Assembly: GCF_000364605.1 (NCBI RefSeq) | Contig: NZ_KB822576.1 | Location: forward strand, 496,001-560,000 | Reading direction: 5' to 3' | Source of the DNA: Nocardioides sp. Iso805N | Lineage (GTDB): Bacteria; Actinomycetota; Actinomycetes; Propionibacteriales; Nocardioidaceae | DNA length: 64,000 bases | Part shown: piece by piece, positions 23,094 through 47,983 of the stretch | How the letters are laid out: each line of letters starts with the position of its first letter | How positions within the stretch are numbered: position 1 is the first letter of the stretch | The notes under the pieces: generated by a model | Database searches by the model: none | Seen by the model: only the letters and a program-made list of their open reading frames with translations | What the model was told of the DNA's origin: nothing | Made by a program: the position numbers and the translations under genes

Positions 23094-23612
23094 ATGGCAG
23101 ATCAGACAGTCGAGCTCGTCAAACTACGCGAATCGCTCCGACTGTGTCAGGCCGAACTGGCATCGCTGCGCTCTGCCGAAGAGAGCTGGGCCGAGCGGCT
23201 TGCCCCGCTAGAGCACGAGCGGAGCCAGTTCATCGCACTCTCCGAGGGCCTCGCGGAGCGTCTCGCCGAGGACGACGTCGCGCCGACAGGCCTCCGGTCA
23301 CGCCTACGCAACGCCTTGGCAAGGACACTGCCCTCGGAGCACGAGGCTGAACAAGTCGCGCAATTGCACGCGACGCCTCTTTTCGATGCCGCCTGGTACC
23401 TGCGCCAGTATCCGACCGTCGTCACCAGTGGCATGAGCCCCACACTGCACTATCTGCGGCGCGGTGCGAAGAACGGCCGCAATCCGGGTCCGAACTTCGA
23501 CACCGCCGCCTACCGGGCCGCCCATCCCGACCTTCCCCGCCGCGCCAATCCGTTGCTGCACTTCGTCGCGACGCTCGGCTATGACAACAACAGGACGAGC
23601 TCCCGGTCGTGA
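23094..23612 (+). CDS. Small repeat-module protein of the surface-polymer locus
   Basis: This 172-residue protein from the ATG at 23094 has a GGGGA site upstream. The N-terminal 70 residues look coiled-coil-forming (VKLRESLRLCQAELASLR). The C-terminal half holds two copies of a module: LFDAAWYLRQYPTVV...HYLRRGAKNGRNPGP and FDTAAYRAAHPDL...NPLLHFVATLG. The same paired module begins the three large transferases of this locus. No enzyme motif is present, so a scaffold or targeting role is possible. Its stop overlaps the GTG of the next gene by 4 bases (GTGA). Confidence 0.75.
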   Translation: MADQTVELVKLRESLRLCQAELASLRSAEESWAERLAPLEHERSQFIALSEGLAERLAEDDVAPTGLRSRLRNALARTLPSEHEAEQVAQLHATPLFDAAWYLRQYPTVVTSGMSPTLHYLRRGAKNGRNPGPNFDTAAYRAAHPDLPRRANPLLHFVATLGYDNNRTSSRS

Positions 23613-26083
23613 CCCACCAGCCACAGAGCGAAATGGTCGAGTTGGATCATCTGCTCGACCTACCCGAGCAAGACAGACTTCGCCTCGAAGAGATCGTCGT
23701 GGAACACCTCGTCGACCGCGCCTTCTACGTCCAGACCAGCGGGGCGTATCTCGAGGACGGCGAAGACCCTGTTGCGCACTTCTGTCGAATCGGGTGGAGG
23801 CTCCTGCTGAAGCCGAACCCGACGTTCGATGTCTGGTGGTACTGGACCAACCATCTCGATCCGAGCTCGGCCGAGATCAATCCTTTGGTGCACTACGCGT
23901 TGTCCGGTCAGCAGGCGGGCGTCTCAACCCACCCGACGCCGAGGCAGCGCCCTGACGCTGAGTCGCTGCCTTCAGACCGCGCACCGCGCCGTGCCTGCCT
24001 GTTCGCAGCGTTCGACGCCGAGGGAACCGTCGATGAGGCAACCCGCCTCCTCATTGCTGAGCTCGATCGCCATTGCGACGTCTTCGTCCTCTACGACAAC
24101 TACATGTCGCCAGACGAGCTCGCCAAGCTCGCAGACATCACTGTCGGCGCTTGGGCCGTTCGCCACGGAGCCTACGACTTCGGCTCCTACTCGATGCTCG
24201 CGCGAGACCTCGTGGGCTGGGACCGCTTGGCGGCCTACGACGAGGTGCTGTTCGTCAACGACAGTTGCTTCCTTGTCCGTCCGCTCGACGCAGTCTTCGG
24301 GCAGATGGATCGACGCAACTGCGACTGGTGGGGGTTGCAGGCCACCAAGGGACTGGCGAGCACCAAGGACCAGGTCTCGAACTCATTCACCGAGCCCATT
24401 CCGATCGAGCGCGTCAGAGCAGAGATGCTCGAGGGCTTCGAGCACGACCCCGTTTATGACTTCCACATCGGTTCCTATTTCCTAGCATTCCGCCGACCCG
24501 TCCTCGAGGACCCGGGGTTCAGGAGGCTGATCGACTCGGTGGGGCCGGCAGGCAACAAGCTCCTGGTCATCCTCAAGTACGAGGTGGGGATCACCCACCT
24601 GCTGCTCGGGCACGGGTTCACCTTCGACACGTTCATGCCGTCCTTGGACCCGTTCCATCCCTTGTTCACCCTGCGCCACTTCGCGCTCCTGGAGCAGGGC
24701 TTCCCGCTCCTGAAGCGCTACCTCATCTACCAGAACCACTACGACGTGCCGGGTCTTGATCAATGGCATGAGTTGGTCAGGGCTGCTTGCGCGGAGGCAC
24801 CTGTCGATGTCTTCGAGAGTTCGCTACAACGCACCGCGCCCGACGACCGTCTGCAGCGAAGCATGTCGATCCATGCGGATGCCGATGGCAGAGTCAAGGT
24901 CCCGCGTGTCCTGCGCGGCAACGCCTACCGGCGCCGCGACGCGGCGGTGGACAAGAACAGCGACACGTGGGTCTTCGCCGTCGATGTGTCCGATCATCGG
25001 TTGCCGCCCAACAGCCGCGCGATCTTCGAAGCCGTCAAAGACGACCCGTCGATCACGAAGGTCGTGCTGACTCGGTCGAAGCGGATTCACCTCGACGGTG
25101 TCAACGTCGTGACCGAGCCACTCCTAAGTCCTCGGGGCCGCCAACTCTTGCTGCGCGCCGGAACGCTGTTCCTCAACCGCCGACCCCGCGCGACGTTCCG
25201 CGCTCCGTTGGACCCTGAGCGCCAGACCATCGTGGCCGTACGCGATGGCCTGCTCCTGGAGCGAACCGGCAGAACAGCCGGCAAGCCGCTAGCCCCCGAG
25301 ACAACCAACAGCGAACCCAATGAATTGATTCACCCTGCCCCGCTGCCGGCGTACAGCGGCCTGCTCGTCGCCTCGGATGTTGACGCTCTCGCCGCTGTGG
25401 CCTCGCACTGGCCGGCGACCTACTCACAGAGCTGGCGAACAGGGATCCCCGCTCACGACTTTCTCTTCTGCGCACCGGAGGCGCTGCCCGCCGACATGCG
25501 TGAAGAACTGCAGCGTCTCCGGGCGCAGGTCGCGGGTCGTACGCTGGTGTTGTTCGCTCCGAGCCTTCGCCGCACCGGGGCCGATTACGAGCCATATCGG
25601 TTCTCGAACGCCGAAATTGCGTGGCTGCGTTCGTGGACCGAGCGTGACGACATCGCACTCGGCATCCGCGAGCACCCCCTCGACCTCGAGCGCCCTTACA
25701 TGACTCAGCTCGGCGAGTTCGCGCTCGACCTGTCCGTCCGCCACTATCCGTCCGACCATGTCGTCCTGCGGGCAGCCGACGCACTCATGACCGACTTCTC
25801 GGGCTCAGCTCTTGACTTCGCCGTGACGGGCAAACCCGTGCTCAGCTTCGCTCACGATCTCGAGGTCGCGCAGGACCGACTGCTCTACGACCTGGAGCAC
25901 TTCTTCCCGGGGCCGGTCGCCTGCACGTTCGATTCTCTCGCCGTCGACCTGGAATACCTACCGACCCAGCAACGCTCTCCCCGCTATGACCGGATCAGGG
26001 AGATGTTGACCGACTATCACGACGCTCAGAACACAAATCGCGTGCTGGCGCGCTTGACGTCGACCGCAGGAGAACGAGGCTGA
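23609..26083 (+). CDS. RgpF-like / degenerate CDP-glycerol glycerophosphotransferase fusion
   Basis: The protein has 824 residues. Residues about 30-115 are the WY/HY module. Residues about 127-400 resemble rhamnan synthesis protein F (RACLFAAFDAEG, DFGSYSMLARDLVGWDRL, FVNDSCFLV, CDWWGLQ, HIGSYFLAFRR). Residues about 480-815 have the fold pattern of TagF-type glycerophosphotransferases (IREHPLD, DALMTDFSGSALDFAVTGKPVLSF). The motif WHGxPLK, which carries a catalytic His in that family, is replaced by VRDGLLLERTG (about 543-553), so the second domain may be inactive or altered. It lies between two coupled genes, with a GTGA overlap before and a one-base overlap after. Confidence 0.82.
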   Translation: MTHQPQSEMVELDHLLDLPEQDRLRLEEIVVEHLVDRAFYVQTSGAYLEDGEDPVAHFCRIGWRLLLKPNPTFDVWWYWTNHLDPSSAEINPLVHYALSGQQAGVSTHPTPRQRPDAESLPSDRAPRRACLFAAFDAEGTVDEATRLLIAELDRHCDVFVLYDNYMSPDELAKLADITVGAWAVRHGAYDFGSYSMLARDLVGWDRLAAYDEVLFVNDSCFLVRPLDAVFGQMDRRNCDWWGLQATKGLASTKDQVSNSFTEPIPIERVRAEMLEGFEHDPVYDFHIGSYFLAFRRPVLEDPGFRRLIDSVGPAGNKLLVILKYEVGITHLLLGHGFTFDTFMPSLDPFHPLFTLRHFALLEQGFPLLKRYLIYQNHYDVPGLDQWHELVRAACAEAPVDVFESSLQRTAPDDRLQRSMSIHADADGRVKVPRVLRGNAYRRRDAAVDKNSDTWVFAVDVSDHRLPPNSRAIFEAVKDDPSITKVVLTRSKRIHLDGVNVVTEPLLSPRGRQLLLRAGTLFLNRRPRATFRAPLDPERQTIVAVRDGLLLERTGRTAGKPLAPETTNSEPNELIHPAPLPAYSGLLVASDVDALAAVASHWPATYSQSWRTGIPAHDFLFCAPEALPADMREELQRLRAQVAGRTLVLFAPSLRRTGADYEPYRFSNAEIAWLRSWTERDDIALGIREHPLDLERPYMTQLGEFALDLSVRHYPSDHVVLRAADALMTDFSGSALDFAVTGKPVLSFAHDLEVAQDRLLYDLEHFFPGPVACTFDSLAVDLEYLPTQQRSPRYDRIREMLTDYHDAQNTNRVLARLTSTAGERG

Positions 26084-28653
26084 TGGACCTGGAGGAGTAT
26101 CGGACCCGATGGCATGCGTTCGCCCAGGCGTGGCAGACCGAGCGGTCAGAGGACCCCGACTCAGCAGATACGTTGCTCACAGATGCTCTGCGCGGCGGCC
26201 TCACGTCACTGTCACTGCCAGAGACCTCCGCGGAGCCGACACCTCTCACGCTGCTTGACTGTGCGACAGCACTCGTGCGGGCCGCTGACGTGTTCGAGAC
26301 GGAGGGATACCTCAACGCCAACCCAGGTGTGCGCCGAGCCGGCGTCGACCCGGTGCGGCACTATTGCGAGCACGGGTGGCGTGAGCTGCGAAATCCGAGT
26401 CTGGAATTCGATGGGTGGTGGTACACAGCTGAGTACCTCGATCCCACCCAGCCACCGGAGAATCCGCTCATCCATTTTCTGCTGGTCGGTCGACCTGACG
26501 GTCTACTAGGGATCCCGCAGCGAATCTCACGGACTCCTATCTCGTATGCGCCGGGCCATGTGGTCCGTCGGGTCTGCCTGTTCGCCGCCTATGACATCGA
26601 CGGAATCGTCGATGACTACGTCCTTGCGTACCTGCGGGAGCTGAGCAACTACGCCGACATCTATTACCTCGCAGATGGGCAGATGGCCCGCGACGAACTA
26701 GCAAAGCTCGACGGCATCACCAAGGGAGCGTGGAGCATTGCCCACGGCCGCTACGACTTCGGCTCGTACTCCTTGCTTGCACGGGATCTGGTCGGATGGG
26801 ACGTCATCGAGACCTACGATGAGCTGCTGCTCGCCAACGACAGCTGCTATCTCCTGCGAGAGCTTGCCGACGTCTTTGCCGAGATGGACCGGAAGGCGTG
26901 CGATTGGTGGGGGCTCCAGGCGACTGCTCGCCAGTTCGAGGAGACCCCCGAGACGGGGCCGCTCGCGCCGATGCCGTTGACCGAGGTCAAGGACCGGATG
27001 CTGCCGCACGCGGTCTTCGAGTACAACCAATTCATCCACGTCGGGTCGTACTTTCTCTCCGCCCGCAAATCGGTCATCACGGATCCGGGCTTTCGCAAGC
27101 GCATCAATGAGGTCGCAAAGCAGGACAGCAAGATCGGCATCATCTACCGATACGAGACCGGGACGACGCAATATCTCGTTGGGCAGGGTTTCGACTTCAG
27201 CACCTATGTGCCCGATCTGTTTCCGTATCACCCGATCTACGGTCCGCATGCGTTCGACCTTATCGCTCGGGGATTCCCGCTGCTGAAGCGACAGTTTCTG
27301 TCCGATAATCCCTATGACACGCCGGATCTGATCGACTGGAAGGAACGGATCACGGCTCTGATCCCCCAGGCGCCAGTCGAGATGATCGAGCGTAATCTTC
27401 GACGCGTCGCGCCCGCCGATCGACTCGCCCGAAGCTTCGCAATCCGCACCAACCCAGACGGCTCCATCGACGATCACCAGCCGCTCAGTCGCAAAGCCTT
27501 CCGTGCTCTGGATCGGGTCACTCCGAAATTCAATCATTGGTGGGCGTTCCCGGTGTGTCGCTACGACCACACCTTCGCAGGTAACGAGCGCGCCGTCTTC
27601 GAAGAAGTGCGCGATGATCCCTCCATCAAGAAGATCATCCTGACCCGTTCACGCCGGGTCGACGTCTCAGGCGAGAATGTCGCGGTCGTTCCTCTCGAAA
27701 GCCCAGAAGGGCAGCATTACCTAGCGCGCTCGCGCCAGATCTTCGTGAAGCACGGGCCTACCATCAACGTCCCATGGCCACTTTCGACCACAACGCACAA
27801 CTTCGTGAATCTTTGGCATGGCATTCCGCTCAAACGCTTCGGGACAGCCGCCCTCGAGCTCAACGCTGCTCAGCACGACGTGGTGATCCGTAACAACGGC
27901 GGCTCGCGAGCCATCGTCACGTCAAGCCGGATGGACGCGCTGGCGATGAACGCCTCGTTCTTCCCAGCGTCGTATCCGGACCTGTGGCAGACCGGCCTTC
28001 CGCGCAACGACTTCATCGTGCGCGATGACGCAGCGCTGCCGCCAGACCTTCTGGCCGCGGCCGACCGTCTCCGAGACGAGGTCGCCGGACGGCGGCTCGT
28101 CCTCTTTCTGCCGACCTTCAAGGACGGACAGGCCGACTCCTACTACAAGTTCACCGACGCCGATATCGCCACCCTGGCCGATTGGGCGGAGCGACACAAC
28201 GCGGTCCTCGGCGTCCGCGAGCACATGGCAGATCGCGCTCGTACCTATTCACGGATGCTGGCTCCCCTCAACCCGATCAACGTCTCCTCGCGCCGTTATC
28301 CGGACCTGGAAGTCCTCTACCGCGTGGCCGATGCCTTGGTCAGCGACTACTCCAGCTGTCTGGTCGACTTCATGATGACCGGGCGTCCCGTGATCAGCTT
28401 CGCCTACGACCACGACAGGTACGCCCAAGCCGAGCGCGGACTGGTGTACGACCTGGAACGCGTTCTGCCGGGACCCGTGTGTCGCAACTTCGACCAGTTC
28501 GCCCATGCCCTCGGCGACGTCTTCCGGGAGCGTACGCCCGACGAGCTCGAGGAGTATGACTGGAAGCGTGGAATCTTCTTCGACTACATCGACGACCAGG
28601 CCGCGGCCCGGGTTGTCGAACGGGTGAAGCGTCTCTACATCGACGTCGACTGA
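26083..28653 (+). CDS. RgpF-like / CDP-glycerol glycerophosphotransferase fusion
   Basis: This 856-residue paralogue of the preceding gene has the same order. The paired WY/HY module spans about 70-150, the RgpF-like domain about 163-430 (RVCLFAAYDIDG, DFGSYSLLARDLVGWDV, NDSCYLL, CDWWGLQ), and the glycerophosphotransferase domain about 515-850. Here the catalytic motif is intact: NLWHGIPLKRFG with Trp578-His579-Gly580, followed by VREHMAD and DALVSDYSSCLVDFMMTGRP. It probably builds a glycan and adds polyol-phosphate or a related phosphodiester unit. It ends 2 bases from the convergent gene at 28656. No membrane segment is apparent. Confidence 0.87.
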   Translation: MDLEEYRTRWHAFAQAWQTERSEDPDSADTLLTDALRGGLTSLSLPETSAEPTPLTLLDCATALVRAADVFETEGYLNANPGVRRAGVDPVRHYCEHGWRELRNPSLEFDGWWYTAEYLDPTQPPENPLIHFLLVGRPDGLLGIPQRISRTPISYAPGHVVRRVCLFAAYDIDGIVDDYVLAYLRELSNYADIYYLADGQMARDELAKLDGITKGAWSIAHGRYDFGSYSLLARDLVGWDVIETYDELLLANDSCYLLRELADVFAEMDRKACDWWGLQATARQFEETPETGPLAPMPLTEVKDRMLPHAVFEYNQFIHVGSYFLSARKSVITDPGFRKRINEVAKQDSKIGIIYRYETGTTQYLVGQGFDFSTYVPDLFPYHPIYGPHAFDLIARGFPLLKRQFLSDNPYDTPDLIDWKERITALIPQAPVEMIERNLRRVAPADRLARSFAIRTNPDGSIDDHQPLSRKAFRALDRVTPKFNHWWAFPVCRYDHTFAGNERAVFEEVRDDPSIKKIILTRSRRVDVSGENVAVVPLESPEGQHYLARSRQIFVKHGPTINVPWPLSTTTHNFVNLWHGIPLKRFGTAALELNAAQHDVVIRNNGGSRAIVTSSRMDALAMNASFFPASYPDLWQTGLPRNDFIVRDDAALPPDLLAAADRLRDEVAGRRLVLFLPTFKDGQADSYYKFTDADIATLADWAERHNAVLGVREHMADRARTYSRMLAPLNPINVSSRRYPDLEVLYRVADALVSDYSSCLVDFMMTGRPVISFAYDHDRYAQAERGLVYDLERVLPGPVCRNFDQFAHALGDVFRERTPDELEEYDWKRGIFFDYIDDQAAARVVERVKRLYIDVD

Positions 28654-28655
28654 CC

Positions 28656-30776
28656 TCAGGACGACGTCGTGGCGCCGGTCGAGGACACCGTGCCGACGTG
28701 GCAGGCCATGTCACCCACCGAAAGCGCTACTCGACCCGTGGCAGCTCGGAGGGTTCGACGGGCCGTGCGATCGGCTGCGGGAACGCAGGCCAGCGACACG
28801 TCCAAACGCCGCAAGGCTTCATTCACCCGTTTTGCGGTCGGCGAGCCCCGACCGGTCACCAACCTCAGCAGGATCCGTCGGTCCTTGAGGTTCTCTGCCG
28901 GTAGGTCGAGGTAGGGAAGGTAGTCGTCCCGGGCGACGACGGGGAAAGAACGTCCACCGGTGATGGCGAGGACCTGCATCTGAATCTCGGGCAACAGCCA
29001 TCGTCCCTTGGGCACGGGCAGTCGCTCGGCGTCACGGACGTCACTCAGAGCGTTTTGATCGACCTTCCACGTCGGATGAGATGTCAGTCTGGCACCAGCC
29101 TCTGGGGTCCAGATCCATCGCCCGGAGGTGAAGAGAACGGACCCGATCAAACCAGCGACTGCCGCCATCACCACCGTTTGGGGCCAGGCAGCCGACCGCC
29201 CCCAGCTCACCAGTCGCGGGATGGGCACCGTGATGAGCATGCCCACCATCACCCCGGTCGGCGCCTCGATCGCCAGTCGCCAGACGATTGCCCCGGCATT
29301 CGTCGCCGCGTTGGCGATGGCGAGAACTCCTGGGATGTAGGCAGCGAGCACCGCCACCGACGCCATGGCGGCAACCACACCAGCGCGCCCCACCACCAGG
29401 CGTGGACCGAACACAACCGCAAGCACGCCGAGGACCGCGAGCAGATCGACCGAACCGAATGCGATGTTGAAGACGTGCGACAGCGGCGCGACGGCGGAGC
29501 TCGCTGCCCCTACCTGCGCCGGCCCGAAGACCTGGGCGGCCCCGTTGATCAGAGGCGCGACGAGCAGCGCCAGTGCCCCGATCAGGAGCGCCCGCGAACG
29601 CAGGACAGCAGCGGCTAACAGGCCGGCGCCGACGATGACCGGCCCCAGCAGCGCTGATGTCGTGGTGAACCCGACGAAGCACACGCCGGCCACCAGAAGC
29701 ATGAGCTGATCGCGGCGGGCCCGATCGTTGGGAGCGGCGAGCCGACTCAGATACATCCAGATGAGCGGGAGAAGGACCGTGTAAGCCGTGACCTTCCCCT
29801 GCCAGATACGCCCGATCGAGTAGGTGCCTGTGATGGACGCGCCACTGGCAAGCACGAACGCGATCGCGACGACGTAGACGGCCCAGTGCGATCGGCCGGC
29901 CCAGGTCCGAACCAGGCGCCAGGTGGCCCAGCCGAAGACAGCGGAGAGCAGCGGGACCCACACCACGTAGGCGATGGTGGGTGCGTCGAGACCGAGTGCG
30001 TGCGCGATCGACCCCTGCAGCGCCTCGATCGAGGGAGTGGGGAGTCCGCCGTTGTAGGGGACGGGGAGTTTCCCGGGGCTGAACATCGTGTCGTGGACGA
30101 CCGGAGTGCCATGCTCAGCGATCCAGGCCGCGCGATTGACGTAGAAGACGTCGTCCGCGTCCGGCTTGAGCATGAATGAGGCCAGCGTGCCGAGGCCGAG
30201 GCTGACCAGGACAGCGATGGCGTGTTCCCAGGTATGTGGCTCAGCCCGAGCCTCGGAGGCATCACCGGCTTTGGTCCTCGCGCGCGGTACATCTCTGGAG
30301 ATCAAGCGGGCAGATGTCCATCGCAACCATGGCCAGACCTGTGCGCCGAGCACGACGAGCCCGACCGCCGCCAGAACCACAACGCCGAGTCCGTCTCGCA
30401 ACAGGACCGCCACGATGACCGCGAGGATCGCAACCACGACGATCGCTGGTCGTACCCGGACTGCGGGCCCTGAAGAGGCGGGCCCTTGGCGCTGTCCGGC
30501 ATCGCCACGCGAAGCCGAGAGTCCGAAGGCGATGACCAGCACCACCGTCGCAAGAAGCCATGGCCAAGCGGCCCAGCGCACGGAACGCTGCGCGGCGAGC
30601 ACAACCTGGTAGAGGAGGGTCCACCCGGCGAAGGCGACCAAGAACCCGTCGACGGCACCATCGAGAAACAATGGCCAGCGCGCCCTCACCTGCTCGCTCT
30701 CGGCTACCTGCACGACGTCACCCGTCACGTTCCTGGTCCTGAGCGCTCGCCAGACAAGTCCCGCGCGATCGCTCAC
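28656..30776 (-). CDS. Polytopic membrane protein, GT-C-like (possibly DUF6077)
   Basis: The product has 706 residues with 14 or more hydrophobic segments. An extracytoplasmic stretch follows the first group (about 208-260) with DADDVFYVNRAAWIAEHGTPVV, whose acidic pair after the first helices is reminiscent of GT-C transferases. A soluble C-terminal part (about 560-706) contains two Cys. Relatives I recall are annotated DUF6077, but I am not sure. A role in polymer assembly using polyprenyl-linked sugars is inferred from position. The GTG start overlaps the stop of the upstream glycosyltransferase by 4 bases. Confidence 0.65.
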   Translation of the reverse strand: MSDRAGLVWRALRTRNVTGDVVQVAESEQVRARWPLFLDGAVDGFLVAFAGWTLLYQVVLAAQRSVRWAAWPWLLATVVLVIAFGLSASRGDAGQRQGPASSGPAVRVRPAIVVVAILAVIVAVLLRDGLGVVVLAAVGLVVLGAQVWPWLRWTSARLISRDVPRARTKAGDASEARAEPHTWEHAIAVLVSLGLGTLASFMLKPDADDVFYVNRAAWIAEHGTPVVHDTMFSPGKLPVPYNGGLPTPSIEALQGSIAHALGLDAPTIAYVVWVPLLSAVFGWATWRLVRTWAGRSHWAVYVVAIAFVLASGASITGTYSIGRIWQGKVTAYTVLLPLIWMYLSRLAAPNDRARRDQLMLLVAGVCFVGFTTTSALLGPVIVGAGLLAAAVLRSRALLIGALALLVAPLINGAAQVFGPAQVGAASSAVAPLSHVFNIAFGSVDLLAVLGVLAVVFGPRLVVGRAGVVAAMASVAVLAAYIPGVLAIANAATNAGAIVWRLAIEAPTGVMVGMLITVPIPRLVSWGRSAAWPQTVVMAAVAGLIGSVLFTSGRWIWTPEAGARLTSHPTWKVDQNALSDVRDAERLPVPKGRWLLPEIQMQVLAITGGRSFPVVARDDYLPYLDLPAENLKDRRILLRLVTGRGSPTAKRVNEALRRLDVSLACVPAADRTARRTLRAATGRVALSVGDMACHVGTVSSTGATTSS

Positions 30777-32926
30777 GGACGCAGGCCACCACTGGTTGCC
30801 GGGCCGCCGACTCCAGAGCGGACCTCGTGTGCCATCTCGACGAGCGCTTGGGCACGAGCCCTGAAGGAATGCTCACGCCCGATTCTCCGTGCCGTTGCGA
30901 GCCGCACGCTGTCGTGGCCGAAAGCGTCGGCGCGATGTTCCCACATCTGTACCAGCTCCTCGTACTCGCGATAGACGAGAACCGAGTCACCGAACAGCTC
31001 ACCGAGACCCGCCACGTCGTCTGTGACTACCCGCGCGCCGGACGCGACCGCATCGAAGAGCCGGTTGGAGAGGAAGCCCTCGCGCCGCATGTCCTCGAAG
31101 TGGTCGTTGAGCACGATCCCCGCCGATGCGTAGGCGATACCCACCTGGTCGTTGGGAAGGTAGTTGTCAACGACGTACGACGGCGGTATCAAGCCGTCCC
31201 AGTTGGCGCCGTACACGCTCAACGGCAGCCCAGCTTTGATGGCGTCGCGAACGATGGCGCGATACTCGCCCCGGGAGCTGCCGACGAAGAGCACCTCCGC
31301 CCCGGAGTCCGGCTCTGCGCGCCCCGGATGGAACAGTTCGGGATCGGTGGCCTGCAGCAAGGGCTCGATCCGCAACCCCCACTCGGCAGAGCGCCGCTGC
31401 GCCCAGGGCACGCTCGCAGCCACCACCCGATCGTAGCGACGGGCCTCCTCGGCCGTCACCGTCTCCGGGTGACTGATCACCCACGCGATCGAGGGATGCT
31501 CCGGTGTCGGGTCGAACGGGTGCGGACCCCGCAGGACCAGGTCGATGTCGTCGTGCCGCGACGTACGGCGCCCCCATGCGCCATGGTGATCGACGACCGC
31601 CTCCTGGCCGAGGTCGCGCAGGGCGCGGGCGAGGGCATGGGCGAAGTGGGTGTCACCCCAGCGTTCGTCGGGGTTGCTCGGCGCGGGGTTCTTGATGGCC
31701 CAGCGCAGCGGGCGTGGCGCCTCGCTGACCTCGAGTCGTGCGGCGCGCACCACCACCGGCTCGATCACACCGATCCGGCGCGGGGCGCCGTTCGGGGGCG
31801 GTTGCACCTCGTGACCGACGATCTCGTAGCCGCAGGCCGCCCAGATGCGGTGCTCCTCCCCCTCCGAGGCGACGACGTGCTCGCGCTCGTCGAACAGCGC
31901 TCGCGTTTCGAGGTCCACCGGGTGGGGCCGATGCCGAACTCGAGACTCGGTCACGACCCGGAACCGACCCTGTCGCGCCGCCGCCAACCGTCGGCACAGA
32001 TCGATCTCCGCGAGCTCACCCAGCTCCTCGACCACGCCGAGCTGCGCCCAGTCCTTCCGGCGCAAGGCCAGTGCCCCACCGCTCAAACCAGGCATCCGAA
32101 GCGCTCCGACCGCTCCGGCGTCCTCGGCCGGGAAGTCGGCCAGCAGGGGGTAGGGCAACCCGCCCGGAGCCGGATAGACCGCCCCCGCGGACTCGATAGC
32201 GCCTGATGGCGCGATCAGCAGCGACGAGGCGGCGAGGACAGCCGGCGTGTTGAGCGCCGCAACGAGCGGAGCGAGCCAGCCATGCTCGGGCGCAGCGTCG
32301 TCGTGCAGGAGTACGACGAGCTCCGCTGCCGGATCCGCACTCCCCCGTGTCACCCGGAGGCCGGGCAGACCAATCAGCGCGTCCAGCACGATCCCGTCGG
32401 TCATCGAGCCAGTGGCGTCGATGACCAGGATCTCGGCGGCGTCCCCGGCTGCGGCTGCCGTCTCAGCGGCGGTCCGGGCGGCCACCAGCGCGTTCTCCGG
32501 CGCCGAGTAGCAGGTGATCAGCACCGAGGCGACCGCGTCGGGTGTGGGCGCGCCATCGGGCTGCTGCGGCCACGCGGCGTACCGCCGCTTGATCCAGGTG
32601 GCGAGATCGCCCTCGCCCAGCCCAGCGGCTCGGGGCGCCAACAGCGGATGGGTGGCGAGCTTGAGTCCGCGTCGCAGCACGAACGTCAGCGGGTCGCCGT
32701 CGCCGAGCATGGCCAGGCGTTTCGGGCTGAGCCGGCGACGGACGTAGGCCGGGTCGAACAGCGGGTGCGGCGCGAGCCCCGAAGGCACGCCGTGCTCGAG
32801 GTAGTGCCGCACCGCCTCTCCACGATCGAGCCGTACGCCGGCGCGTTCGCCGTACCACTGTTCGTCGAAGAGGTCCGAGTCGAGCAGGAGCTGCTCCTGC
32901 TCGCTGGCCCGCCTGCGCAGACGCAC
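30773..32926 (-). CDS. Two-domain glycosyltransferase with N-terminal WY/HY module
   Basis: The protein has 717 residues. Residues about 18-95 hold the module shared with the neighbouring genes (LFDEQWY, HYLEHG, LFDPAYV). Residues about 130-360 look like a GT2-type domain (VASVLITCYSAPENA, VVLLHDDAAPEHGWL, SGGALALRRKDW). Residues about 400-700 look like a GT-B/CgeB-type transferase (VLFVGSSRGEYRAIV, LPLSVYGANWDGL, IVLNDHFEDMRREGFLSNRLFDAVASGARVVTDDV). It is probably a cytosolic polymer-elongating enzyme. The GTG start has GAGGG upstream, 14 bases after the ftsY stop. Confidence 0.85.
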   Translation of the reverse strand: MRLRRRASEQEQLLLDSDLFDEQWYGERAGVRLDRGEAVRHYLEHGVPSGLAPHPLFDPAYVRRRLSPKRLAMLGDGDPLTFVLRRGLKLATHPLLAPRAAGLGEGDLATWIKRRYAAWPQQPDGAPTPDAVASVLITCYSAPENALVAARTAAETAAAAGDAAEILVIDATGSMTDGIVLDALIGLPGLRVTRGSADPAAELVVLLHDDAAPEHGWLAPLVAALNTPAVLAASSLLIAPSGAIESAGAVYPAPGGLPYPLLADFPAEDAGAVGALRMPGLSGGALALRRKDWAQLGVVEELGELAEIDLCRRLAAARQGRFRVVTESRVRHRPHPVDLETRALFDEREHVVASEGEEHRIWAACGYEIVGHEVQPPPNGAPRRIGVIEPVVVRAARLEVSEAPRPLRWAIKNPAPSNPDERWGDTHFAHALARALRDLGQEAVVDHHGAWGRRTSRHDDIDLVLRGPHPFDPTPEHPSIAWVISHPETVTAEEARRYDRVVAASVPWAQRRSAEWGLRIEPLLQATDPELFHPGRAEPDSGAEVLFVGSSRGEYRAIVRDAIKAGLPLSVYGANWDGLIPPSYVVDNYLPNDQVGIAYASAGIVLNDHFEDMRREGFLSNRLFDAVASGARVVTDDVAGLGELFGDSVLVYREYEELVQMWEHRADAFGHDSVRLATARRIGREHSFRARAQALVEMAHEVRSGVGGPATSGGLRP

Positions 32927-37938: not shown

Positions 37939-39993
37939 TCACCGCCCCCCACCATCCGGCCCAGGGATCACCCGATAGATCTGTTCTGGAACGTTGCCCT
38001 CGCGGTACGAACCGACCTCCTCCAGACAGCTCTGTTGCAGCGCGCCGCCGGCATTCAGGACGTAGGTGACGTAATGCTGCGCGAACGCTGCGCAACTGTC
38101 GAAAGTCATCTCGACGACGTCGATCTGAGGATTGCGTGGCGCCGGACCACCGGTGCCCGCGAGCCATTCGATGTGCGCAAGACGGTTCCAGGCTGGCTTA
38201 TACGCCCCGCTCGGGTCGATCTGCTGCCACATCGTCTTGGAGGGGTAGGTCTGCACCCCGCTATAGCCCGGGACGCCACCCTCGAATACGGTCGCCTGGG
38301 CAGCCCAGCCGACGCCTACTCCTACCCATCGCGCGTTGGGATGGGCAGCATGCAGGCGGAGCATCTGGCGCCCCGCCTGGGTGTCATGGGCGGGATCGAA
38401 CATGTCGTGATACAGGGGGTTGACACCCAAACCAACTGCGAGCGTGCAAGCCAACGAGAGGAAAGCCCCGGTCAACGTGAAGCCGCGGGCCCACGCCGCG
38501 AGCCCCACGGCGAAGGCGACGATGAGGACCATCGCAATATGGGACGGAACCGCAGGCGACCCGACCTGCGACAACCGTGTCCAAACCAGGGCGCCAGCCA
38601 CCAGCGCCGCGAATCCGGTGCCGAAGGCGATTTTCCAGGGCGCCCCCATGTTCATATCCCGCTGCCGCTCGACGAGCAGGACCACGGCGACCGCACCCAG
38701 CATGACGAAGGCGATCTTCACCCCGGTCGGGTTCGAGCGTCCTACCAACAGCAACGCTGCAAGGAAGTCCCAGCCGGGGATGAACATCAGTGCGAATAGA
38801 AAGATATGGACCGCGACAAGAGCCACTACCGGCCAGTCCATGCATCGCCGCTGCCGCCAAAGCCGCCCAGCGAACCAGACCAGCGGAACGAGGAGGAACA
38901 CGCTGATGAGATAGGCCGAGGACCCGCCGGACTGATTGCCACCGAGTCCAGTCGAGATTCCCTTCTGAAGCGAGTGCTCGAAAGGCGCACCGAACAGGCT
39001 GACCAGGTAGTCGAGGCCGAGCGTGCCGGGACGTTCAACCCGATGGCCGGGATAGACCGTGTCGAATACGGCGCGCACCGTGTTGCGGCGGGTCAACACC
39101 CAGACCACCATGATGAGTCCCGAAACCGCTCCCGCTGCCGCCAAGGGAAGCAGTCGCCGCACCACGTCACGGCCAGGCATGCCGTCGCGACGCCATGCCT
39201 GAAGCGCAAGACCTGCGACGAATGGCGCAGCGACATACAAGGCATCGAGCATGAACGGCACGTAGATGCTCATCGCCATGGCCGTCGCTAGGTAGCAGGT
39301 CACGAGGGCGGCGATGACACGCGGACGTAGATCGTTTGCGCGCAGACACCACACGCTCGCCGTCATGGTCACGAACGCGAAGATGATAGCGAGCGTTAGG
39401 ACTGGCATGTAGGTCCATTGGACGTACGGCTGGAAGAGCGCAATGAACGCCAGCGCGACCGCGAGCAACGGCCTGCGAGGCAGGATGCTGACGACGAAGG
39501 CATACACCGAAGCGAGCAGTGCCCCGGCCGGCAACCACCATCGCCATGCCTCACCACGATCGAGATCGAGGAACAGCGAGCCCCACAGGTGCGGGCGGAA
39601 CGCCGTCGACCAATCCCAGGTAGGCGTGTCATTCATGACTGTGGCGTCAGCCCCACCGGGGAAGACGGTGTTGTCCGGTTTGAAGCCCTGTGCCTTCTCC
39701 GAGATCAGCCAACTTCCCTGGACGAGCCATTCGTCCGTACGGATCGATCGCGGTTCGCCGGCGATCACGTGGGAACCTTGCTGACCGTAGAGGGCTTCGC
39801 GCCAGATACCGTTCGAAGTGCCGGACACACCTGATGCAACCGCCAGTAGGAACAGCAGGAGCAGAACGAGCGGGAATGCCCACATGACCGCTCTGTTCGG
39901 TAGCCCGTCGCTTCGCGGCTCTACCCGAAGTGTCCATTTGCCGAAGGCGCGGGCTCCGCGTGGGGCGATTGACTCACGTGTAGGCGATGGCAC
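37939..39993 (-). CDS. Large polytopic membrane protein of the surface-polymer region
   Basis: The protein has 684 residues. After a 35-residue cytosolic start there are about 12 to 13 hydrophobic segments. A first external loop (about 58-150) contains GTSNGIWREALYGQ and RSIRTDEWLVQGSW, whose IRTDEW core recurs in a conserved actinobacterial membrane family. The C-terminal 140 residues are outside the membrane and carry two Cys (FDSCAAF and QQSCLEE). A GT-C-type or polymer-modifying role is inferred from topology and neighbours. The GTG start lies 6 bases after TAGGAT. Confidence 0.65.
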   Translation of the reverse strand: MPSPTRESIAPRGARAFGKWTLRVEPRSDGLPNRAVMWAFPLVLLLLFLLAVASGVSGTSNGIWREALYGQQGSHVIAGEPRSIRTDEWLVQGSWLISEKAQGFKPDNTVFPGGADATVMNDTPTWDWSTAFRPHLWGSLFLDLDRGEAWRWWLPAGALLASVYAFVVSILPRRPLLAVALAFIALFQPYVQWTYMPVLTLAIIFAFVTMTASVWCLRANDLRPRVIAALVTCYLATAMAMSIYVPFMLDALYVAAPFVAGLALQAWRRDGMPGRDVVRRLLPLAAAGAVSGLIMVVWVLTRRNTVRAVFDTVYPGHRVERPGTLGLDYLVSLFGAPFEHSLQKGISTGLGGNQSGGSSAYLISVFLLVPLVWFAGRLWRQRRCMDWPVVALVAVHIFLFALMFIPGWDFLAALLLVGRSNPTGVKIAFVMLGAVAVVLLVERQRDMNMGAPWKIAFGTGFAALVAGALVWTRLSQVGSPAVPSHIAMVLIVAFAVGLAAWARGFTLTGAFLSLACTLAVGLGVNPLYHDMFDPAHDTQAGRQMLRLHAAHPNARWVGVGVGWAAQATVFEGGVPGYSGVQTYPSKTMWQQIDPSGAYKPAWNRLAHIEWLAGTGGPAPRNPQIDVVEMTFDSCAAFAQHYVTYVLNAGGALQQSCLEEVGSYREGNVPEQIYRVIPGPDGGGR

Positions 39994-46411: not shown

Positions 46412-47983
46412 TCAATCCGAGGTGGCCGCGACGACCTCGTCACGGTAGTCGCGCACGATCGCCTCGATGATCCTGGCACCGGCGCCGAGGTCGTCCTGGC
46501 CGGGTGCGGTGGCCCGAGCCGGGCGCCGCAGCGGATCGAGGAACCGGACAAGATCGATCTCGTCGTCGATCGCGGTCGTCACCTCCAGCCAGTCCTGGTC
46601 CTCGTTCAGCGCGAGGCCCGGCCCGGGCCTGAGCAGCCCGATCGGCCGGCCGAGGACGTGGTACTCGGCGACCAGGGAGCTCAGATCACTGATCATCGCG
46701 TCCGCCGCGAGCAGGGCCGGGGTGGCATCCATCGACTCGTCGAGCACCACGTTGGGCAACTGGGCGCAGGCGACGCGGAAGTCGTCGACATGCTCCTGAA
46801 GCCCTGACGCGAGGTACTCCGGGATCAGGCGCGGGTGCGGGCGCACCACCAGACCGAGGGACGGATGCTCGGCGACGTGGCGCAAGATCGGCTCGACCAA
46901 CTCCTGGAACGTGCTGAGCCGTCGATCACCCACGAAGTGCGGGTTCCACAGGACCACGTCCTGCGTGCGCAGCGCGCGACGCAGCTCGGTGGCCTGCGCC
47001 GCCGCCACCTCGTCGGTGAGCAATCGCTCGCGCTTGGCGCTGCCCACGTAGCGGATGTGATCGGTCCCGGCGCGGCAGCACCGGGCGAAGTTCGCCACGG
47101 CACCACGACTCGGAGCGAAGATCCGCCAGGCCATGTTGTGCAGCGGCTGGTTGTGCAGCATGCCCAGGTTGACCGGATCGCCGGAGAGCGCCTGGGCATA
47201 CGGCGCGAGCACCAGCCGGACGCCCGACTCGGCGATCTCCTGCGGGCTCAGGCCGGGCGGGGTGTTCCAGCGGGCGATGTAGGGGTCTGGCACCACCAGG
47301 ACGTCGAGGTCGGCGAGTCGTCCTCGCAGCCACGCGGCGTCACGCAGCCTCACACCGCGCGAGGCGACGAAGGCCTCGACCTCCTCGCGGGGGTGCTGCT
47401 GGAAGTTCGCCGCCTCCTCCGGCACCAGCACCACATCGAGCTCCACGTCCGGGCGCTCGAGCGCAGCGCGCACGATCGAGTCCACGGCGCTCCAGACCTG
47501 GATGTGCTGCACCATCACCACGAAGCGCAGCGGCCGGGTCGGCCGGTGCACTGCGCGGATCTGCCGGGCGCGCGCCGAGGCATCCAGCTCGGTGCGGATC
47601 AGCTCCGGTGTGCCGCGCAGCCAGGAGGTGCCCGCGCCGTACGCGCTGCCGAAGCGCCGCCCGATGCTGCCGAGCATCAGGATCGTCCGAGCGTCCTGCC
47701 CAGGCTCACCCGTCACCTCGAGGCGGGCGATGGCCGGGAGCGCAGCGGCAGTCTCGGCATCCACCACCCGGGCCACCGGCGGCTCGCCATGGGGCAGCGC
47801 CAGCTCATCCCAGAGCCGGATGACGTCGCCGACCGCGTCCTCACCCGGCATCCCGCTCCTCGCGGAGAGGACCAGCTCGACCGGATCGCCGGCGCCGAAC
47901 AGTGCAAGGGCCGCGGCCAGCACACCGGCACCCGAGGCGACATCGTGGAACGGGTACTCCAGATGGATGAGGACGGCGCTCAC
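46412..47983 (-). CDS. CDP-glycerol glycerophosphotransferase-like protein
   Basis: This 523-residue protein has a GT-B-like architecture. Residues about 150-260 form an N-terminal Rossmann half (RPLRFVVMVQHIQVWSAVDSI, VLVVPDPYIAR). The C-terminal half has VVLWNPHFV, VVRPHPRLIPEYL and ADAMISDLSSLVAEYHVLGRPIGLL, the pattern of TagF/TagB-type transferases. The substrate is unknown; surface-polymer assembly is likely. The GTG start has GGAGGTGA upstream, which overlaps the fpg stop, so the two are in one transcript. Confidence 0.8.
   Translation of the reverse strand: MSAVLIHLEYPFHDVASGAGVLAAALALFGAGDPVELVLSARSGMPGEDAVGDVIRLWDELALPHGEPPVARVVDAETAAALPAIARLEVTGEPGQDARTILMLGSIGRRFGSAYGAGTSWLRGTPELIRTELDASARARQIRAVHRPTRPLRFVVMVQHIQVWSAVDSIVRAALERPDVELDVVLVPEEAANFQQHPREEVEAFVASRGVRLRDAAWLRGRLADLDVLVVPDPYIARWNTPPGLSPQEIAESGVRLVLAPYAQALSGDPVNLGMLHNQPLHNMAWRIFAPSRGAVANFARCCRAGTDHIRYVGSAKRERLLTDEVAAAQATELRRALRTQDVVLWNPHFVGDRRLSTFQELVEPILRHVAEHPSLGLVVRPHPRLIPEYLASGLQEHVDDFRVACAQLPNVVLDESMDATPALLAADAMISDLSSLVAEYHVLGRPIGLLRPGPGLALNEDQDWLEVTTAIDDEIDLVRFLDPLRRPARATAPGQDDLGAGARIIEAIVRDYRDEVVAATSD

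Follow-up and report, generated by a model that had tools for sequence, protein, structure and literature searches.

Four proteins of Nocardioides sp. Iso805N, here called A to D, carry a paired repeat module that, as judged by profile searches, belongs to a family undescribed in the libraries searched. They are encoded in one cell-surface-polymer locus of a 64,000-nucleotide stretch of DNA (the window), where the module stands at the N-terminus of three transferases (B, C, and D) and, in the small protein A, alone behind a probable coiled coil (Table 1). The reading favored here, held tentatively, is that the module is a non-catalytic part with which surface-polymer enzymes hold their polymer.

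Table 1. Proteins and modules of the window, with exported relatives of the repeat in other genomes
Feature	Position	Strand	Description or basis
Protein A, 172 aa	23094..23612 incl. stop	+	coiled-coil helix, then C-terminal paired module (stand-alone form)
A, long N-terminal helix, residues 2-59, probable coiled coil	23097..23270	+	AlphaFold2 model, heptad period
A, paired module, residues 95-159 (or to 161)	23376..23570	+	profile matches, predicted helices
GTGA four-base A/B overlap, probable translational coupling	23609..23612	+	junction sequence
Protein B, 824 aa	23609..26083	+	module + RgpF + CDP-glycerol-type transferase
B, paired module, residues 33-101	23705..23911	+	64.6 bits, independent profile
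Protein C, 856 aa	26083..28653	+	module + RgpF + CDP-glycerol-type transferase
C, paired module, residues 65-137	26275..26493	+	67.8 bits, independent profile
Protein D, 717 aa	30773..32926	-	module + GT2-like region + Glyco_trans_1_2
D, paired module, residues 15-87, second repeat degenerate	32666..32884	-	36.2 bits, independent profile
RTX-type proteins with repeat (M10/RTX proteases and calcium-binding protein)	L143 2147-6228, L145 3030-6164, L144 5986-8745		

The initial annotation had proposed, from the sequence alone, that one paired repeat is common to the four proteins. The four open reading frames are present with the positions and sizes it gave, and the common repeat is borne out. 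The pairing itself holds in all four proteins, with the qualification that one copy is degenerate in B (the first) and in D (the second). A profile built from 43 modules of other bacteria, and from zero Nocardioides sequences as a guard against circularity, scores A at 86.8 bits, B at 64.6, C at 67.8, and D at 36.2 (E values from 9e-26 to 5e-10); the next open reading frame of the window reaches 4.1 bits and the best reversed decoy 9.2. Because a Nocardioides-free profile places A to D far above decoys, chance is excluded as the source of their likeness. Used as a single query against the genome, the A module finds C (E 2e-7), B (2e-4), and, weakly, D (0.012), which is the most divergent of the four members. 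A profile of the four modules matches A, B, C, and D only, and no further copies, in the whole 4.43-Mb genome.

The repeat unit is ~37 residues long, with the consensus LFDxxWYLxxxPDVxxxGxxPLxHYLxxGxxEGRxP. In a 52-sequence alignment, the Tyr of WY, the Pro after EGRx, and the second Phe show little or no variation, and both His residues of HY are conserved at 96%. The conserved FD, WY, HY, Gly, and Pro are mostly at positions expected in the repeat core or in helix caps; they look structural, and thus alone do not indicate a sugar-binding surface. The AlphaFold2 model of A (mean pLDDT 91.7, 44-row alignment) predicts module helices at residues 99-105, 108-112, and 116-124, then a short bridge and helices at 137-143 and 153-161. 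Similarly, in the model of a seven-repeat Phenylobacterium protein of 407 residues (L131 7542-8765; pLDDT 82.5), each repeat comprises a beta bridge and helices of ~7, 6, and 9 residues, the same pattern as in A. Both models predict one three-helix repeat.

No curated Pfam-A or NCBIfam model convincingly covers the module in a search with 52 diverse modules, each weak match hitting at most two of them (best E 0.009). A tetratricopeptide (TPR) repeat has 34 residues folded into two antiparallel helices, each roughly a dozen residues long. Identity with TPR was rejected on the ~37-residue unit, the 7/6/9 helices with a beta bridge, and the lack of any TPR profile match among the 52 modules (E up to 1) or A to D (E up to 10). 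Sequence searches of the PDB returned no significant relative of the module. Foldseek with VIA-align, run on both models, gave no Z of 2 or above among the few PDB chains proposed, a result with which a missed fold is compatible; the lack of a library match does not prove the fold to be new. No description of the motif was found in the literature, although one may exist in subscription papers. For protein A itself, neither Pfam nor NCBIfam gave a family above cut-off, and PADLOC returned nothing convincing for A to D.

The repeat may be present in viruses. PHROGs contains a family of unknown function, phrog_9978, that weakly matches 9 of the 52 modules (best 1.5e-4), and structure matches in BFVD, several of them giant-virus glycosyltransferases, are non-significant. 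A viral origin was rejected on these non-significant matches and on the absence of module relatives in viral contigs or phage records.

A search with one peptide pattern retrieved 152 relatives from GTDB genomes, the best 78 loci coming from Alpha-, Beta-, and Gammaproteobacteria, Cyanobacteria, Chloroflexi, Acidobacteria, Planctomycetes, Verrucomicrobia, Elusimicrobia, and Actinomycetota. Genomes positive for the module number 33 of 116 relatives, most of which belong to the same genus, 15 of 396 Actinomycetota, and at least 33 of 299 Pseudomonadota, for which no more than 20 candidates per genome were scored. Outside Nocardioides, the module is N-terminal in 79 of 120 open reading frames, C-terminal in 15, and makes up most of the protein in 26, with up to 14 repeat hits per protein. 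Two transferases of 1757 and 1690 aa (L146 712-5985, minus strand; L147 2946-8018, plus strand) start with 11 or more degenerate copies, which form super-repeats of ~335 residues. Twelve Escherichia plasmid records also match the module.

The catalytic parts joined to the module are diverse. Among 58 module proteins outside Nocardioides, these parts are GT2 (26), GT4-type (~19), RgpF (7), and WbsX (7), and more rarely WsaF (4), GT61 (2), GT8 (1), PIG-L, and methyltransferases. Within Nocardioides the module is found on RgpF/CDP-glycerol fusions and on GT2 + Glyco_trans_1_2, WsaF, and GT4 + RgpF proteins. Since it occurs on several unrelated enzyme families, it belongs to no single catalytic domain. 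A restriction to one known catalytic domain, which would have spoken against a common part, was looked for; unrelated transferase families and stand-alone forms were found instead. The more specific idea that the module is part of the RgpF catalytic domain was rejected on the same distribution and on the existence of module-free RgpF in the genus Nocardioides.

Some carriers appear to be exported. M10/RTX (serralysin-type) proteases of Pseudoroseomonas and Azospirillum contain the repeat, as does an RTX-type calcium-binding protein of Aureimonas encoded beside a type I secretion system; the repeat is thus not restricted to cytoplasmic enzymes. A secreted-type wall hydrolase of an actinobacterium (L148 13340-18757, minus strand), composed of Amidase_3, GBS_Bsp-like repeats, Glucosaminidase, and CotH domains, has two module copies, one of them directly after the amidase domain.

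In the window, B and C share one architecture, in which RgpF (PF05045, first ~200 of 503 positions) is followed by Glyphos_transf (PF04464). Pfam places these at residues 159-378 (6e-21) and 446-816 (7e-31) of B and at residues 196-409 (2e-19) and 495-848 (3e-50) of C. The module lies outside both models and is also found on many proteins with neither. Protein D ends in Glyco_trans_1_2 (PF13524, residues 560-696, 2e-15, Pfam) and has a weak MftF-like GT2 match in NCBIfam; its orthologs in relatives are PF00535 + PF13524 proteins. Three other minus-strand proteins of the window were noted. Between C and D lies an uncharacterized DUF6077 protein (28656-30776), which, like an uncharacterized DUF7657/DUF7654 protein (37939-39993), may be a membrane glycosyltransferase of the same locus. 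A 523-aa protein (46412-47983) with a weak Glyphos_transf match (E 1.8e-5) is possibly a further teichoic-type transferase.

In the AlphaFold2 model of protein A, a 58-residue helix is followed by two short helices and then by the module. The hydrophobicity of 12 homologous small proteins, averaged, has a period of 3.5 residues that one of 5000 shuffles equals in strength; the heptad test is weak for the single sequence of A (219 of 2000 shuffles), and the family average is needed. The model and the period support a coiled coil in the N-terminal helix, and with it the initial view that one module sits on different enzymes and also alone behind a coiled coil. Both stand-alone and fused forms, which a profile search had been suggested to find, recur across bacteria. 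Genes for stand-alone proteins that have a helix or an additional region at the N-terminus lie beside those for module transferases in Halomonas (L075), Tropicibacter (L057), and an Acetobacteraceae genome (L130). In Maritimibacter (L149) the stand-alone protein lies 5 bases from a 949-aa GT2/GT4 protein, and in Caulobacteraceae a seven-repeat form accompanies module transferases. An Enterobacter IncY plasmid (L142 4750-9574) encodes a 498-aa coiled-coil-like protein with the module at its C-terminus and an N-terminal region ahead of the coiled coil; its neighbor in this ABC-exporter polysaccharide locus is a 1103-aa glycosyltransferase with the module at its N-terminus.

In Nocardioides the small proteins are encoded on the same strand as, and directly upstream of, an RgpF-type fusion. 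Most junctions in relatives overlap by 4 bases (GTGA or ATGA) or by 1 base (TGATG); the A/B and B/C junctions of the window are of these two types, the start of C sharing one base with the stop of B. In 13 pairs of small protein and fusion, both partners divide into the same three clades, and their distances correlate with r 0.93, a value that 0 of 5000 permutations reach. This parallel divergence shows a stable pairing and is not a sign of contact, because the genes are linked and linkage alone can yield it. By gene order and divergence, A is a tightly linked partner of B and C. The proposal that the small protein organizes the three enzymes is partly supported: its tie to B and C stands, a tie to D is not demonstrable, and an organizing role for all three is not supported.

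Several observations favor a role in handling the polymer. Nearly all module partners build glycans, which makes the surface polymer, and not a catalytic fold, the common factor; on this ground polymer holding, although still short of an even chance, is preferred to docking between proteins. A single module protein is present in 30 of 50 full-flank loci outside Nocardioides and, among the candidates scored, a single match in 10 of the 33 positive Pseudomonadota genomes, so that the module must be able to do its work where no other module protein is present. Carbohydrate binding by the module would be consistent with its presence on polymer enzymes, RTX proteases, and a wall hydrolase, and the arrays of up to 14 hits resemble, by analogy, multivalent binding parts. 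On the other side, exported versions make up a minority whose function may have changed, and a protein-protein dock would likewise lead stand-alone and fused forms to recur together. Polymer holding fits slightly better than pure enzyme docking.

If the module holds polymer, the presumed ligand of its N-terminal copies in B, C, and D is the growing polymer, probably lipid-linked, which these copies would retain close to the active sites, either as a whole or by its acceptor end. Protein A, made together with B and C, would form an oligomer through its coiled coil and thereby add several binding modules in trans. It would then act as a cytoplasmic scaffold and as a processivity factor for the RgpF/CDP-glycerol fusions, with a presumed effect on chain growth.

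The closest comparison is with the TagF-like capsule polymerases. Truncation of the TPR in Cps3D and Cps7D of Actinobacillus pleuropneumoniae impairs processivity, and poly(Gro3P) is not extended; in all CpsD homologs analyzed, TPR and catalytic modules are found in the same enzyme (PMC11666461). B and C resemble the CpsD type in combining a PF04464 transferase, a second transferase, and a helical repeat, and by analogy a non-catalytic role of the module in acceptor use and processivity would be expected. Their putative product is, as for the CpsD type, a glycerol- or ribitol-phosphate polymer. The differences are that the repeat here is not a TPR and that there is a separate stand-alone partner protein. 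The module may work most like the TPR domain of these polymerases. As cited in PMC11666461, a true TPR of a synthase-dependent system binds both polysaccharide and a partner protein.

A second comparison underlies the main alternative, a protein dock, in which the coiled coil makes A an oligomer and homotypic or heterotypic module-module contacts bring B and C into one assembly with it, much as WbdD recruits its polymerase. Coiled-coil proteins are known membrane-associated polymerase scaffolds (PMC11231755). Protein A resembles the WbdD-type terminator/ruler proteins of ABC-transporter O-antigens (PMC11231755) in its predicted extended coiled coil, its C-terminal part, and its position near polymerase genes, and its gene pairing would fit a C-terminal polymerase recruitment site like that of WbdD. 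Stand-alone forms almost always accompany module enzymes: 38 of 42 complete stand-alone open reading frames share a fetched locus with another module protein, a count that takes in seven frames fetched in duplicate and one set of orthologs from Caulobacteraceae. The overlapping, jointly diverging gene pairs and the Enterobacter neighbors argue in the same direction. Docking is weakened by the many loci, and some genomes, with one module protein only, by the D-type transferases of many relatives, which retain the module where the stand-alone form was not found, and by the modules of A and B, which are only ~31-36% identical. In addition, exported proteases and the wall hydrolase carry the module and cannot dock to cytoplasmic enzymes, which counts against pure docking. 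Docking is possible but doubtful.

It is unlikely that the module is a structural extension only, a helical cap that stabilizes or spaces catalytic domains, binds no ligand, and persists in A as the leftover of an ancestral fusion. The structural look of the conserved residues, the freely varying repeat number, and the module-free RgpF enzymes of the same genus would all suit such a cap. A useless leftover would hardly be kept as a gene partner in several separate lineages, and many unrelated folds carry the module, at one terminus or the other.

A chain-length ruler, in which the coiled coil of A sets polymer length and the module is a polymerase recruitment site, is very improbable: the probable coiled coil and recruitment-type module of A resemble the C-terminal half of WbdD-like proteins, and its Enterobacter relative has a region ahead of the coiled coil, but in A the long helix begins at residue 2, with no family match there above cut-off and no N-terminal catalytic domain. 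For the same reasons A was rejected as a WbdD-type terminator, from which it differs also in its Gram-positive actinobacterial host.

Auxiliary helical repeats on polymerases are known; what this case adds is a repeat family that the libraries searched do not list. Tentatively, and with less confidence than the polymer-holding role itself, this family may be a general surface-polymer handle used by glycan enzymes, exported proteins, and small coiled-coil adaptors made one-to-one with polymerases, in which module swapping would pass polymer holding or enzyme assembly between unrelated pathways. The repeat, for which neither a Pfam or NCBIfam model nor a relative of solved structure was found, is present in at least roughly a tenth of the Pseudomonadota genomes sampled; it would mark proteins that handle surface polymers, and naming it would aid the annotation of many 'hypothetical' proteins and of N-terminal glycosyltransferase extensions. 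It also makes it possible to test concretely what holds polymerases together or keeps them on their polymer, for which the stand-alone coiled-coil form, small, predicted with high confidence, and with a known enzyme partner, is a practical entry point.
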